Of a stretch of DNA of 42,590 bases, positions 3,279 to 16,158 are shown in pieces; the stretch's first letter is position 1, and each line of letters begins with the position of its first letter. Origin of the DNA: Acidobacteriota bacterium (GTDB lineage Bacteria; Acidobacteriota; Terriglobia; Bryobacterales; Bryobacteraceae); contig JACQDF010000157.1 of assembly GCA_016201205.1 (NCBI GenBank), positions 1 to 42,590 of the forward strand, read 5' to 3'. The notes below the pieces were generated by a model that made no database searches, was not told where the DNA came from, and was given only the letters and a program-made list of their open reading frames with translations. Both the position numbers and the translations under genes were made by a program.

Positions 3279-5054
3279 CTAGGCGGCGCACTCGCCGCGG
3301 CCCAGTTGCAGCGAGAAAGCCTCCTCATCGCCCCAATCCTTGTAGATCTCGGGGAACATCTCGATCGGCTTGGCCAGATCCGCCGTCAACTGCCGGAAGA
3401 ACTCGACCTTGTGGCGCAGAACAAACTCGCGGAAGCTCTCGCCGGCGGCGCGGTTGCTGCCGTAGTGGTCGATGACGCGCTGGACCGCCTCTGGTGCAAG
3501 ACGCGCCGGGATGCTCTGCACTGCAAGCGCGAAGCGCATGATGCCCCCGGCGTCGTAACCGCCGCCCAGCAGCATCTGGTAGTAAGGCACCTCCTTGCCA
3601 TCGATCTTGCGCGCGTTTCCGTAAAAGCCGATATCGCCGATCCAGTGGTGGCCGCAGGCGTTCGGGCAGCCGCTGGCCTTGATGCTCAGCTTACGCACCG
3701 CTTTGTCCGGGTGATTCTTCACTACGCCGGCCAGCGCGGCGCCGAGATTCATTGTCTTGGTCAGCGCCAGGTTGCACGAATAAGCGCCGGGGCAGGTGAC
3801 GATGTCGTCGATCTCATTGGCGCCCGCCCTGTTCAGTCCGATCAGCTTGAGCGCGGCGTAGACCCGCTTCAGATGGGACACCGGGATAAAGCCCAGCACC
3901 AGGTTCTGCACGATGGTCACCCGGAGCATGCCGTCTCCGGCGTCTTCCGCGATTCTGGCCAGCCCGCGCATCTGGTCCCCGGTGAGGTTGCCCTGTGGGA
4001 TCACGGCCGTCACCGCGGCGTAGCCGGGCTGGCGCTGCTGGTGGACGTTGGTTTCCAGCCATCGGTCGAATTCCGCATCCGGCGTGCGGTCCACCACCGG
4101 CAGCAGATCGCCCGTACCCAACGGCGGCGGCGCCGGGACGAATCCTCCGAATCCTTCCGGAACCGTCTCCAACGCCGCGATTCCACCATGGGCCTGAATG
4201 TCCTGATACTCGGCTTCGATGGTGGCCTTTACCCAATCCCAGCCGCGTTCTTTCAGGACAAACTTCAATCGCGCTTTGTTCTTGTTCTGACGATTCCCGT
4301 GCTTGTTGAACATCCGGATCACCGCTTCGATCCTCGGCACGAGATTCTCCACCGGCAGAAATTCATCGAGAAGATGGGCTTCGGCGGGCATCGGCCCCAG
4401 ACCTCCGCCAATCACCACCCGGAAACCACGCTGATCCCCACGCACGGCGGCGGTCAGCCCCACATCGTGAACGGCGCCCACCATCCGGTCTTCGGGATAG
4501 CCCGAAAACGCAATCTTGAATTTGCGCGGGAGGCTGTCCGTGAGTTCTTTGTGCAGAAACGCGAACGCGGCCTGCCGCGCATACGGCCTCACATCGAACA
4601 ATTCGCCGGGCAGCAAACCCGCCATCGGATCGCCGGTGACGTTGCGGACCGTGTTGTAGCAGGCTTCACGCGTCGTCAACCGAACATCGGCCAGCAATTC
4701 GAGCACCTCGGGCACCTTCTCGAGCGGCACGAAGTGGTACTGCATATTCTGCCGCGTGGTCAGATGGCCCTTGCCGCCGCCGTACTCGTCCGCGATGCGA
4801 GCCAGTTGCCTCATCTGCGCCGCTGTCATCGTCCCCCCTGGGATCTTGGTGCGGATCATCTGGACGCCGGCCTGCCGCTGGCTGTAGATGCCGCGCCGCA
4901 GACGGTAGGGGCGGAACTGGTCCTCGTTTATCTCGCCCGCGCGCAGCCGCCGGATTTGAAGGCGGAAGTCCTCGATGTCCTGGCGGACAATGTGGTCGTA
5001 ATCGGCCTCGAGGGTGGCGGCGAGGGAAAGAGGGGTGTCCTCGGCAATGTCCAT
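3279..5054 (-). CDS. Ferredoxin-type sulfite/nitrite reductase (siroheme)
   Basis: 591 residues, the usual length for assimilatory siroheme reductases of the NirA/Sir type. Two half-domains are visible: the first has IYSQRQAGVQMIRTKIPGG and HLTTRQNMQYHFV (about 55-110); the second carries the siroheme/4Fe-4S cysteines C421 and C427 in TCPGAYSC and C463 and C467 in GCPNAC. The reaction is the six-electron reduction of sulfite to sulfide or nitrite to ammonia, using ferredoxin as donor, in the cytoplasm. No other cys or nas gene is adjacent, so the substrate cannot be assigned from context. A perfect palindrome directly before the start codon suggests repressor control. Convergent with the DUF362 gene. 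Confidence 0.93.
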   Translation of the reverse strand: MDIAEDTPLSLAATLEADYDHIVRQDIEDFRLQIRRLRAGEINEDQFRPYRLRRGIYSQRQAGVQMIRTKIPGGTMTAAQMRQLARIADEYGGGKGHLTTRQNMQYHFVPLEKVPEVLELLADVRLTTREACYNTVRNVTGDPMAGLLPGELFDVRPYARQAAFAFLHKELTDSLPRKFKIAFSGYPEDRMVGAVHDVGLTAAVRGDQRGFRVVIGGGLGPMPAEAHLLDEFLPVENLVPRIEAVIRMFNKHGNRQNKNKARLKFVLKERGWDWVKATIEAEYQDIQAHGGIAALETVPEGFGGFVPAPPPLGTGDLLPVVDRTPDAEFDRWLETNVHQQRQPGYAAVTAVIPQGNLTGDQMRGLARIAEDAGDGMLRVTIVQNLVLGFIPVSHLKRVYAALKLIGLNRAGANEIDDIVTCPGAYSCNLALTKTMNLGAALAGVVKNHPDKAVRKLSIKASGCPNACGHHWIGDIGFYGNARKIDGKEVPYYQMLLGGGYDAGGIMRFALAVQSIPARLAPEAVQRVIDHYGSNRAAGESFREFVLRHKVEFFRQLTADLAKPIEMFPEIYKDWGDEEAFSLQLGRGECAA

Positions 5055-5185: not shown

Positions 5186-6208
5186 ATGAACACCGTTCGT
5201 CTTACAGCGCACGTTAAAGCCGCCGGTTGAGCCTCCAAGCTGAGTCCAAAGGTTTTGGACCAGGTGTTGCGCCATCTGCCCAAGGTGGCCAACGAGAATG
5301 TGCTGGTTGGTTTCGATACGTCGGATGATGCCGGCGTGTACCGGCTGAGCCCGGAGTGTGCGCTGGTGCAGACGGTGGACTTCTTCACGCCAATCGTCGA
5401 TGATCCGTTCACCTATGGCGCTATTGCAGCCGCCAACTCCTTGAGCGACGTCTACGCGATGGGCGGACGGCCCCTCACGGCGCTCTCCCTGGTGGCGTAC
5501 CCCGGCAAAGGCGACCTTGATGTTCTCGAGCAGATTCTGCAAGGCGGCTCCTCGAAGATGCAGGAGGCTGGCTGCCCGGTCATCGGCGGACACAGCGTCA
5601 ACGACGAAGAGATCAAGTTCGGCTATGCGGTCACCGGTGTGGTGCATCCGGAACGGGTGTGGACGAACGCGGGGGCTCGCGCAGGCGACGAACTGCTGTT
5701 CACCAAACGGATTGGCACGGGTGTGATTGCGACGGCGCTGAAGCGCGGGGTGGCGAAAACGGAAGATGTAGCGGACGCGATCGGCTCGATGCTGATGCTG
5801 AACCAGGGCGCGGCCGAAGCGCTGGAGGGACTTACTGTACACGCCTGCACCGACATCACCGGCTTCGGCCTCATCGGCCATGCGCGTGAGATAGCCGAAG
5901 CGAGCGGCGTGACGCTGGAGATCGAGGCGAGCCGTGTCCCATTGCTTGCCGGCGCGCTCGACTACTCGCGTCAGGGCGCGATCGCGGGCGGGCTGAAGAA
6001 CAACCAGGAATTTGCCTCTTGCGATGTGGACATGGCAGCCGCGGTGTCGCCCGAACTGGAAGCTTTGATGTACGACCCGCAAACCTCCGGAGGCTTGCTG
6101 ATCGCCGTACCTGCCGCGGATGCAGCCCTGTTGCGGGAGCGCTTTCCGGCAGCGGTGCGGATCGGCCGGGTCACCGGGCGAGGGCAAAAGAGAATTCGCA
6201 TCCTATGA
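5186..6208 (+). CDS. selD: Selenide, water dikinase SelD with selenocysteine (UGA codon 15)
   Basis: SelD makes selenophosphate from selenide and ATP for selenocysteine and selenouridine synthesis. Reading from the ATG at 5186 gives MNTVRLTAHVKAAG, then TGA (5228-5230), then ASKLSPKVLDQVLRHLPK in the same frame. The TGA aligns with the catalytic Cys17 of E. coli SelD, and the essential Lys is kept three residues later. The rest is standard: VGFDTSDDAGVY, VDFFTPIVDDP, GGHSVNDEEI, TDITGFGLIGHA and DPQTSGGLL. Length with Sec is 340 residues, normal for SelD. Starting after the TGA at 5255 would remove the catalytic segment. A SECIS-like hairpin follows the UGA. Overlaps pyrF by ATGA. A TATCCT box at 5171-5176 would give a very short leader. 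No selA, selB or selC is in the window. Confidence 0.93.
5240..5263 (+). promoter_or_regulatory. Bacterial SECIS-like hairpin in selD mRNA
   Basis: Inside the coding sequence, GTCCAAA (5244-5250) pairs perfectly with TTTGGAC (5254-5260) around a GGT loop. Outside a single bulged A, CTG (5240-5242) pairs with CAG (5261-5263), giving a 10-bp stem. The first loop G is 21 nt after the UGA, inside the 16-37 nt window described for bacterial SECIS elements, and the G at the start of a small apical loop fits the SelB-binding consensus. Confidence 0.85.
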
Positions 6209-6891
6209 AGAATCCGATTATCGTGGCGCTGGATCTCGCTTCGGCCGGGCAAGCGCGCGATCTGGTGCGGTGTCTCGGCGACACGGTCGCATTCTACAAA
6301 GTGGGCATGGAGCTGTACGCCGCCGCGGGCATGGGCTTTGTCGAGGAATTGGCGGCCGAAGGGAGGCGCGTTTTCCTTGACCTGAAGTTTTACGACATTC
6401 CGGAGACCGTGAAGCGCGCCACCGCGCAGGTGGCGGCGAAAGGAGTTCATCTGCTCACGGTGCACGGAAGCGGCGCGGTGATGCGCGCCGCTGTCGAAGG
6501 GCGCGGCCAGGCCGCCCTGAAACTGCTCGGCGTGACCGTGCTCACCAGCTTCGATCAAAGTGACCTTGCCGACCTGGGCTATCCGTGCAAGCCGGAAGAG
6601 CTGGTGGCGCTGCGCGCGAGGAAGGCGAAAGAAGCCGCCATGGACGGGATCGTGTGCTCGCCGCTTGAAGCGGCGCAGATGCGCGAGATGATGGGACCTG
6701 GAGCGATCCTGGTCACGCCGGGTGTGCGCTCGGCCGGGGCGGGCCAGAGCGATCAGAAGCGCGTCGCCACGCCCGCCGAAGCGATCCGCAACGGGGCAAC
6801 GTATGTCGTCATCGGCCGGCAGATCACCCGCGCCCGAGATCCTCGTGCGGAAGTGCAACGCATCCTGGAGGAGATCGCCGCTCAGCCATGA
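6205..6891 (+). CDS. pyrF: Orotidine 5'-phosphate decarboxylase
   Basis: 228 residues, the normal length. It catalyses the last step of UMP synthesis, OMP to UMP plus CO2, in the cytoplasm. Visible motifs are IVALDL at the N-terminus, FYKVGMELY, the catalytic DLKFYDIPETV (D-K-D array near residues 60-70), LLTVHGSGA, and the phosphate-binding C-terminal part VTPGVRS and YVVIGRQIT. The ATG at 6205 overlaps the selD stop (ATGA), so it is translationally coupled to selD. Gene order selD-pyrF-sulfatase shows no pathway link; co-transcription looks like convenience. Confidence 0.95.
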   Translation: MKNPIIVALDLASAGQARDLVRCLGDTVAFYKVGMELYAAAGMGFVEELAAEGRRVFLDLKFYDIPETVKRATAQVAAKGVHLLTVHGSGAVMRAAVEGRGQAALKLLGVTVLTSFDQSDLADLGYPCKPEELVALRARKAKEAAMDGIVCSPLEAAQMREMMGPGAILVTPGVRSAGAGQSDQKRVATPAEAIRNGATYVVIGRQITRARDPRAEVQRILEEIAAQP

Positions 6892-13669: not shown

Positions 13670-13685
13670 CCGCCGTAGCTGAACC

Positions 13686-13694
13686 TGCTATACT
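13686..13694 (+). promoter_or_regulatory. Extended -10 promoter of the cobalamin operon
   Basis: TGCTATACT is an extended -10 element (TGn plus TATACT) about 17-25 bp before the start of the riboswitch. No good -35 is seen, as is usual with an extended -10. The reverse complement offers TATAGC for the divergent MFS gene. Confidence 0.5.
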
Positions 13695-13710
13695 CTCACA
13701 CAATCCCCTG

Positions 13711-13868
13711 ACCGGGTAAGCAATGCTCGGGAAGGCGGTGCAAATCCGCCACTGTCCCGCAACTGTGAGCGGCGTGATGTGGGCAGCGTGGTCACTGTCC
13801 CGGAACCGGGAGCGGGAAGGCCGCGCGAGACACCCAGCCGCAAGTCAGGAGACCGGTTGCTTGCCTCT
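13711..13868 (+). ncRNA. Cobalamin riboswitch
   Basis: Conserved core elements are present in order: GGTGCAAATCCGCCACTG, GTCCCGCAACTGTGAGCGG, the GGAAGGCC/GGGAAGG internal helix region, and the B12 box CAAGTCAGGAGACC (13841-13854). AAGCAA (13718-13723) pairs with TTGCTT (13857-13862) to close the aptamer. The cobQ Shine-Dalgarno (GAGGGAGAA) starts about 25 nt later, so control is probably at ribosome access. It governs the btu/cob operon that follows. Confidence 0.95.
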
Positions 13869-13900
13869 TCGAGTGGGTGCGTTCCGAGGGAGAACGGCTC

Positions 13901-15316
13901 ATGTCGTTATCCATTTTCATTGGCGGCACGGGCTCGCACGCCGGCAAGAGCTGGATGGCCGCCGCCGTGTGCCGCTTCCTCAAGCGCCGGGGCTATCAGG
14001 TAGCGCCCTTCAAGGCCCAGAACATGTCGCTCAATTCCTACCCTTGCCGCGAAGGGGGCGAGATCGGCCGCGCGCAGGTGGCCCAGGCCGAAGCGTGCGG
14101 CCTGGAGCCCTCCGCCGACATGAATCCCATCCTCCTGAAACCGAACACGGACACGGAAAGCCAGGTGATCCTGCTGGGCAAAGTCTGGCGCAATCTGCCC
14201 GCGCACGAATACTACCTGCATTTCGACTTCCTGCTCGAGCAGGTGCTGGCCGCCTATGGGCGGCTCCGCGCTCAATATGAGTTCCTTGTCATCGAAGGCG
14301 CCGGCAGTGTCAGCGAGATCAATTTTCGCCATGTCGATCTGGTGAATCTCGGCCTGGCGCGCCGCCTCGATGCCCCCGGACTGCTGGTGGCGGATATCGA
14401 TCGCGGCGGGGTGTTTGCCTCTGTCGCCGGCACGTTCGCCGTGCTCGACCAGGAGGAGCGGGATGTGCTTCGCTCCTTCGCCGTGAACCGCTTCCGGGGC
14501 GATCCCGCCTTGTTTGGCGGCGGAGTGCGCGAGTTGGAAAACAGAGCTGCTCGAAAATGTCTGGGCGTCTTCCCGCACCTGGAGAATGTCCGCCTCGATG
14601 AAGAAGACAGCGTCTGGTTCGACCGGAGGGCGCCCCGATGCGGCTTCGGCGGCGATGTCGCCATCCTGCAATTCCCGCTCTGCTCGAATTTCACCGACTT
14701 CCAGTTGCTCCCCGGCGCCTGGTGGGTGGACCGGCCCCTGGGGCGGCAGTTTCGCCTGGTGATTCTGCCCGGGTCGAAGAATACGCTGTCCGATCTGGCC
14801 TGGATGCGGGCACGCCGGCTCGATGACTGGGTGCTCCGGCAACACGCGGGAGGTGCGCGGATCCTCGGCGTCTGTGGCGGTTATCAGATGCTGGGGGAAG
14901 CGATCGAAGACCCGCACGGCATCGAGTCGGATCGCGGCTGCGCGCAAGGTCTGGGCCTGTTGCCGGTCCGAACCGTGCTTTCGCCCGAGAAAACCACGCG
15001 TGTCGTCGAGGCGCAAACTCCTTCCGGAGTGCGCTTCTCAGCCTACGAGATTCACATGGGCGTGACCGCGCGCGGCCATGGTTTCGCTCCGTTCGCCGTG
15101 GTGAAGGATGAACCGGAAGGAATCCGCGCCGGCAACTGCTACGGCACCTATCTGCATGGCGCACTCGAGAACCCCGCCGTGCTCGAGGAATTGCGTGGCG
15201 CGAGCCCGCCCGGCGAGGACCCGCCTGTGCGCGACAAAGACGCCGCTTACGACGCTCTCGCCGATTGGTTCGAGCAGCACGCCGATCTGCGCCTGTTCGA
15301 GGAGTTGTACTTGTGA
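13901..15316 (+). CDS. cobQ: Cobyric acid synthase
   Basis: 471 residues from the ATG at 13901, which has a Shine-Dalgarno and follows the riboswitch. CobQ amidates four side chains of adenosylcobyrinic acid a,c-diamide using glutamine and ATP. Visible: P-loop-like GGTGSHAGKSW (near 8-18), FKAQNMSLNS, IEGAGSVSEIN, the glutamine amidotransferase nucleophile C325 in GVCGGYQMLG, and the histidine region GTYLHG near residue 417. Length is typical. The 3' end overlaps btuF (GTGA). The preceding and following corrin steps (cobB/cbiA, cbiB/cobD) are not in this window, so they must be elsewhere or absent. Confidence 0.94.
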   Translation: MSLSIFIGGTGSHAGKSWMAAAVCRFLKRRGYQVAPFKAQNMSLNSYPCREGGEIGRAQVAQAEACGLEPSADMNPILLKPNTDTESQVILLGKVWRNLPAHEYYLHFDFLLEQVLAAYGRLRAQYEFLVIEGAGSVSEINFRHVDLVNLGLARRLDAPGLLVADIDRGGVFASVAGTFAVLDQEERDVLRSFAVNRFRGDPALFGGGVRELENRAARKCLGVFPHLENVRLDEEDSVWFDRRAPRCGFGGDVAILQFPLCSNFTDFQLLPGAWWVDRPLGRQFRLVILPGSKNTLSDLAWMRARRLDDWVLRQHAGGARILGVCGGYQMLGEAIEDPHGIESDRGCAQGLGLLPVRTVLSPEKTTRVVEAQTPSGVRFSAYEIHMGVTARGHGFAPFAVVKDEPEGIRAGNCYGTYLHGALENPAVLEELRGASPPGEDPPVRDKDAAYDALADWFEQHADLRLFEELYL

Positions 15317-16158
15317 AACGCTGGCTCTTCATTCTCTCGGTCCTGTCTCCCCTCGAAGCAGGCCAGCGCATTGTCTCCACCTCGCCCGGCATCACCGAGA
15401 TCCTGTTTGCGCTAGGTCTGGGCGACCGCGTCGCCGGCGTGACCAGCTACTGCCGCTTTCCGGATGAAGCCAGACGCCTGCCCAGGATCGGCTCGTTTCT
15501 GGACCCGCACCTGGAAACGATTCTCGAGCTTCGCCCCGATCTGGTCATCGTGCAAAAGAATCCCGTGCGGCTGACCGAACGCCTGCGCGCGGTGAGACTG
15601 CGTGTGCTCGAAGTGAATCCGGAATCCATGCAAGGGGTGCATGAGGCGATCGCTGCGATTGCGGCGGCAGCCGGCGTGCCGGATCGCGGGCGGCAGTTGA
15701 GCGAGCGGATGCGCTCCGAGCTGAACACGCTGGGCGAGCGCGCAGGCAGACTCCCGCGCACGAAAGTGGTCTTCTTTGTCGGGCGAACTCCCGGCACGCT
15801 CGACGGTCTGATCGCCGCCGCCAAAGGGTCCTATCTCGCGGAACTGCTGGAAATCGCCGGCGGCGACAATATTTTCGCCGATGCCCCGGCCGCTTATCCC
15901 AAAATCACGCATGAAGAATTGCTGGCGCGCAATCCGGACGTGATCATCGACATGGGGGATAGCACGCACACCGGCGTCATCTCGGAGGAGCACCGCCAGG
16001 CGGTGATCCGCCTGTGGTCGCGCTACCCGGTGCTGAATGCCATGCGGAACCGGCGTGTCTATCCCGTCGCCGACGATCGCTTCGTCATTCCAGGCCCTCG
16101 CATGGCGCAAGCCGTGCGGCTGTTCGGAAAACTGCTGCACCCGGAGGTGTCCTGGTGA
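15313..16158 (+). CDS. btuF: Cobalamin-binding periplasmic protein (BtuF-like)
   Basis: 281 residues from the GTG at 15313, which overlaps the cobQ stop and begins a signal peptide (VKRWLFILSVLSPLEA). It has the class III binding-protein form typical of BtuF/FecB: RIVSTSPGITEILFALGLGDRVAGVTSYC at the N-terminus, LETILELRPDLVI near 70, a long interlobe helix, and NPDVIIDMG in the C-lobe. It should deliver corrinoids to the BtuCD transporter encoded next. The riboswitch context supports B12 rather than iron chelates. No outer-membrane receptor BtuB is in the window. Confidence 0.88.
   Translation: MKRWLFILSVLSPLEAGQRIVSTSPGITEILFALGLGDRVAGVTSYCRFPDEARRLPRIGSFLDPHLETILELRPDLVIVQKNPVRLTERLRAVRLRVLEVNPESMQGVHEAIAAIAAAAGVPDRGRQLSERMRSELNTLGERAGRLPRTKVVFFVGRTPGTLDGLIAAAKGSYLAELLEIAGGDNIFADAPAAYPKITHEELLARNPDVIIDMGDSTHTGVISEEHRQAVIRLWSRYPVLNAMRNRRVYPVADDRFVIPGPRMAQAVRLFGKLLHPEVSW

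Follow-up and report, generated by a model that had tools for sequence, protein, structure and literature searches.

Selenophosphate synthetases that themselves contain selenocysteine (Sec) have long been known (PMC4561486 and PMC1794560, each consulted in part). According to the consulted part of PMC4561486, 19% of the detected SelD genes contain Sec, invariably at one and the same site, and those with Sec carry bacterial SECIS structures; the consulted part of PMC1794560 names SelD and FdhA as the most widespread bacterial selenoproteins. The bSECIS model, as given in the consulted part of PMC13188914, describes a loop of 3-9 nt with G in the first two loop positions, a stem of 4-16 bp, a spacing of 16-37 nt and an energy of -7.5 kcal/mol or lower. 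The gene analyzed here is a further example of this long-known class. It lies in a 42,590-nt stretch of an Acidobacteriota genome (assembly GCA_016201205.1, contig JACQDF010000157.1), hereafter the window, and very probably represents, on sequence comparison, an ordinary Sec-containing SelD whose UGA at 5228-5230 is read as selenocysteine.

The selD gene (selenide, water dikinase, or selenophosphate synthetase) occupies positions 5186..6208 of the plus strand, from ATG 5186 to the TGA at 6206-6208, and encodes 340 residues including Sec15 when the TGA at 5228-5230 is read through. Its product scores 371.8 bits with TIGR00476, the curated SelD model (cut-off 125), and the best PDB match found by phmmer is 3u0o (2.6e-70), aligned over approximately residues 2-312. 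As the initial annotation had proposed, the TGA is in frame, preceded by MNTVRLTAHVKAAG and followed by ASKLSPKVLDQVL, and it sits at the catalytic position: the motif GUASKLSP aligns with GCGCKISP of 3u0o and GCAAKVGP of 2yye, placing the TGA opposite the Cys of both. The same annotation was also right about the Ser at the second Cys of the classic motif, two residues after the Sec site. The second residue is Cys in 3u0o, in contrast to the Ser found here, and 2yye likewise lacks the second Cys, having Ala. The conserved Lys that lies within a few residues of the catalytic Cys/Sec is present in GUASKLSP; both the Cys/Sec and this nearby Lys are presumably catalytic in SelD.

A mechanical ORF call for selD begins at TTG 5255, which would lose the active-site segment, so the earlier expectation that automatic callers truncate this gene is plausible. 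The annotation of selD should run from ATG 5186 with Sec15. A mechanical scan lists TGA-interrupted frames in the window. Downstream on the plus strand, pyrF (orotidine 5'-phosphate decarboxylase, 6205..6891; PRK00230, 269.9 bits against a cut-off of 193) shares an ATGA overlap between its start codon and the selD stop. Upstream and divergent lies a NirA/sulfite-reductase-like hemoprotein gene (3279..5054, minus strand), which scores under all the curated cut-offs listed. Farther along, a cobalamin riboswitch was matched at 13684-13875 of the plus strand (86.7 bits).

The genome of the window is a draft of 392 contigs, 94.3% complete. The initial annotation had tied its reading to selB and selC, and a search of this genome found both selB and tRNA-Sec. 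The tRNA-Sec match scores 77 bits with the Rfam family (cut-off 47) and is called by ARAGORN as tRNA-Sec with anticodon tca, the only one among the eight best matches scanned, the other seven being ordinary tRNAs; the Rfam family is permissive, with matches in all 14 control genomes and above the cut-off in 5 of them. A second match above the cut-off (C114, 48.6 bits) was rejected, as ARAGORN identifies it as tRNA-Ser. The selB gene scores 391.5 bits (cut-off 242.25) and has no stops; of the 14 control genomes, 2 also score above the cut-off with its model. A selB-like match on contig C213, considered as a second copy, proved to be EF-Tu.

A search for further UGA-containing genes had also been proposed, and two were found at known Sec sites, within a search that covered the UGSC and formate dehydrogenase alpha (FDH-alpha) families. 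The UGSC-family selenoprotein candidate (L132; C339 26167-26607, minus strand) scores 142.5 bits against a cut-off of 125 and carries a single TGA, at D-U-GSC; the consulted part of PMC5029168 includes UGSC proteins among its families. The FDH-alpha-like gene (L133; C183 ~14957-15730, minus strand), whose best stretch reaches 184.3 bits, under the cut-off of 666.25, likewise has one TGA, at ARL-U-HGPTV. Read by hand, both can form hairpins with a 3-nt loop starting with G at 19 nt after the UGA. In the FDH-alpha-like gene (loop GTC) this is the predicted fold, and in the UGSC gene (loop GTT) the minimum-energy fold is another pairing. This acidobacterial genome thus carries Sec decoding and at least three candidate selenoprotein genes; the consulted part of PMC12013277 lists an acidobacterium with three known selenoprotein genes.

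The expectation of a working Sec system elsewhere in the genome held for tRNA-Sec and selB. No selA was found above its curated cut-off in this assembly, the best TIGR00474 match reaching 37.3 bits against 267.9. With the Pfam SelA model, whose cut-off is low (22.8), four matches score higher than the limit (best 34.7 bits). We rejected these open frames (L102, L103, L104 and L105) as selA because they are DgaE-like, with 154-198 bits for the selA-related DgaE subfamily model against 25-48 for SelA, all under the cut-offs. All four SelA-related frames, which resemble DgaE-type ammonia lyases, lie in this one genome.

One explanation of the missing gene is that selA has been lost, leaving the UGA genes as relics, or that Sec is made by another synthase. 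It is favored by the scores just given and by the finding that selA exceeds the cut-off in 39 of the 41 genomes searched, the genome of the window being among the 41 and G017 having its selA split over two contigs. The neighborhood of selA argues otherwise. In congeners, selA has a Dpp5-like peptidase and a PIG-L/BshB1-like deacetylase as its neighbors in 9 of 9 examined (11 listed), these families having been checked in one of the nine, where both proteins score under the curated cut-offs. No orthologue of either was found in the genome of the window: the best rows for the peptidase are 32-34% identical and the nearest deacetylase match 33%, compared with 69-96% and 76-95%, respectively, between G009 and eight other congeners. 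Since both usual neighbors of selA are also missing as orthologues, pointing to one missing block, an assembly or binning gap is more probable than loss and explains the finding most simply; less probably, the genome has truly lost the whole block. Moreover, tRNA-Sec, SelB and three UGA genes persist, with no other stops in the matched stretches. We consider relic genes or a substitute synthase improbable, and retain an ordinary Sec-containing SelD, with selA presumably in an assembly gap.

To place the TGA in its phylogenetic context, SelD loci were collected by a scan of named genomes, giving a set of 80 among at least 585 confirmed relatives; the nearest named relatives of the window among the matches listed are Bryobacterales (Acidobacteriota). 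At the Sec site, 65 of the 80 listed loci have TGA, including the frameshifted locus L059, and 15 have Cys (13 TGC and 2 TGT). The TGA-bearing loci among the matches listed sit on distinct contigs.

A SelD match above the cut-off is present in 36 of the 41 genomes searched. Within the window's own family this applies to 20 of 25 genomes, 18 of which, the window's genome included, show one TGA and two none (G013, which reads TGC, and G019); in a further member, G020, a SelD fragment under the cut-off also has one TGA. Family f2 contributed two partial matches ending short of the Sec site. In family f3 of the same order, 14 genomes have SelD without a stop, in open frames of 749-832 aa. These frames (including L157-L166, which span 753-832 aa) lack the TGA and are probably N-terminal fusions. 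Long N-terminal SelD fusions (NADH-dehydrogenase-like), nearly always with SelD-Cys, are known according to the consulted part of PMC4561486.

Directly downstream of the Sec codon, a putative bacterial SECIS hairpin was delineated at 5240..5263 of the plus strand from folding, model comparison and covariation in the TGA homologues. Its upper stem has 7 bp (5244-5250 with 5254-5260, GTCCAAA-GGT-TTTGGAC), the GGT loop occupies 5251-5253, and an outer stem adds three pairs (5240-5242 with 5261-5263) past a bulged A5243. The hairpin described in the initial annotation is therefore present, in the form of 7 bp plus three pairs across the bulge and not as ten contiguous pairs; the 21-nt spacing given there fits the loop, which is separated from the TGA by 20 nt, whereas the base of the stem is only 9 nt away. 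Taken alone, the window hairpin is hardly better than chance: the 66-nt fold has a z-score of -1.21 with 21 of 200 shuffles equally good, and a synonymous-codon null gave 0.05 (300 randomisations). It is the comparison among homologues that exceeds chance.

This comparison set 66 TGA rows (the 65 listed loci and the window) against the 15 listed Cys rows. For the best contiguous-stem SECIS-like hairpin of each row, the mean energy is -8.5 kcal/mol among the TGA rows vs. -3.3 among the Cys rows; this hairpin reaches -7.5 kcal/mol in 40 of 66 vs. 1 of 15, and attains 0.05 in the synonymous-codon null in 48 of 66 vs. 3 of 15. Eighteen of the 66 TGA rows fall short of 0.05, and in one, L067, no contiguous-stem SECIS-like hairpin was found. 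Two of the three Cys rows at 0.05 (L048:4103 and L054:2963) still have a SECIS-like hairpin in its usual location, and likely represent recent Sec-to-Cys changes; SECIS remnants after such changes are reported in the consulted part of PMC1794560.

Covariation was scored on all 66 listed TGA rows, 62 of them distinct, in which the seven stem pairs are formed in 84.1% of cells. Both-sided changes occupy 48 cells vs. 18.9 after shuffling, and the covariation score is 0.316 vs. 0.184, neither value being reached by any of 500 shuffles. Four pairs show both-sided changes (vs. 2.6 shuffled; reached by 56 of 500), which is not clearly above the shuffles, and 44 of the 48 cells fall in the two pairs adjoining the loop, where the encoded residues vary too. 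The 15 listed Cys rows are no better than shuffles, with 51.4% paired, two both-sided cells and a score of 0.112. Relatedness inflates covariation counts, so more weight belongs to the difference between the TGA rows and the Cys rows.

These data bear on the possibility that a TGC or TGT was misread as TGA during sequencing or assembly, or that the TGA is a real stop in a pseudogene. Such an explanation could draw on the draft state of the genome, with its 392 contigs and 94.3% completeness, and on the Cys codon of 15 of the 80 listed loci. Sequencing error is nevertheless very unlikely, and we reject it on grounds of conservation, since the TGA is common to 65 of the 80 listed loci on distinct contigs. 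Family-conserved residues flank it on both sides, the downstream frame is intact, and the hairpin is weak or absent in most of the listed Cys relatives; we accordingly give error and pseudogene next to no weight. Equally negligible is readthrough of the UGA by an amino acid other than Sec, given that the Sec decoding parts are present apart from selA, that each of the three genes checked has its UGA at a known Sec site, and that UGA and Cys exchange among relatives.

The position of the hairpin itself varies: for the SECIS of selD, two or more registers are seen, at about +20 or +33 nt from the UGA, with differences in this respect within Acidobacteriota, both registers falling inside the published 16-37 nt range. 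Of the 66 listed TGA rows, the hairpin is at +20 in 49 (three placed by hand) and at ~+33 in 11, and six fit neither set. The 11 listed +33 rows comprise seven Bacillota, one Nitrospirota, one Binatota and two Acidobacteriota; the last two, among the matches listed, are L083:4034 and L093:4031. In these 11 rows the +20 stem is missing (a mean of 3.0 of 7 pairs), and 7.9 of 8 pairs are formed at +33, where 10 of the 11 have the full stem. At the same place, the 49 listed +20 rows form 4.3 of 8 pairs, none complete, and the listed Cys rows 3.9 of 8. Covariation in the 11 rows is 0.639 vs. 0.216 with 98.9% paired, values that are partly circular as the rows were chosen for the hairpin. Tested singly in the synonymous-codon null, six of the 11 reach 0.05; L083 falls short (0.060), as does the acidobacterial +17 locus L087 (0.133).

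In the selD tree, which has an arbitrary root and places L083, L087 and L093 on long branches, these three acidobacterial genes (registers +33, +17 and +33) form a group (100/91) that joins other acidobacterial selD genes (99/96). The +33 label requires at least five changes along starred branches, part of which lead to Cys and not to +20. One reading, which we put forward tentatively and would not yet prefer, is that the selD SECIS moved between +20 and +33 inside the acidobacterial lineage while the Sec codon stayed fixed, so that the SelB-binding site might have changed without a passage through Cys. Gene transfer is also a possible source of the register difference. Among the papers listed by our literature searches, none announces two selD SECIS registers in its title or abstract opening; the present comparison set could reveal how a SECIS element changes its place when the sequence also has to encode protein.

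Together, our results suggest a mode of expression that follows the known bacterial pathway. In the window, the ribosome would read UGA 5228-5230 as selenocysteine; SelB would bind the 5240-5263 hairpin at its GGU loop and deliver Sec-tRNA-Sec. The SelD selenolate would then contribute to the formation of selenophosphate, from which SelA obtains selenium, and SelD would thus need its own product in order to be made. We infer the insertion of Sec, the activity of SelD and the placement of selA in an assembly gap, the mechanism being that of the known pathway.

Measured against the bSECIS model, the window hairpin shares a 3-nt loop starting with G, a 7-bp upper stem and a distance of 20 nt from the UGA. 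It differs in that the upper stem alone, at -5.9 kcal/mol, is weaker than the -7.5 limit; the 48-nt fold comes to -13.2 kcal/mol. Compared with known Sec-SelD proteins, the Ser at the second motif residue is the one feature found to set the gene apart; the family (TIGR00476), the position of the UGA and a SECIS placed directly downstream within the coding sequence are shared with them.
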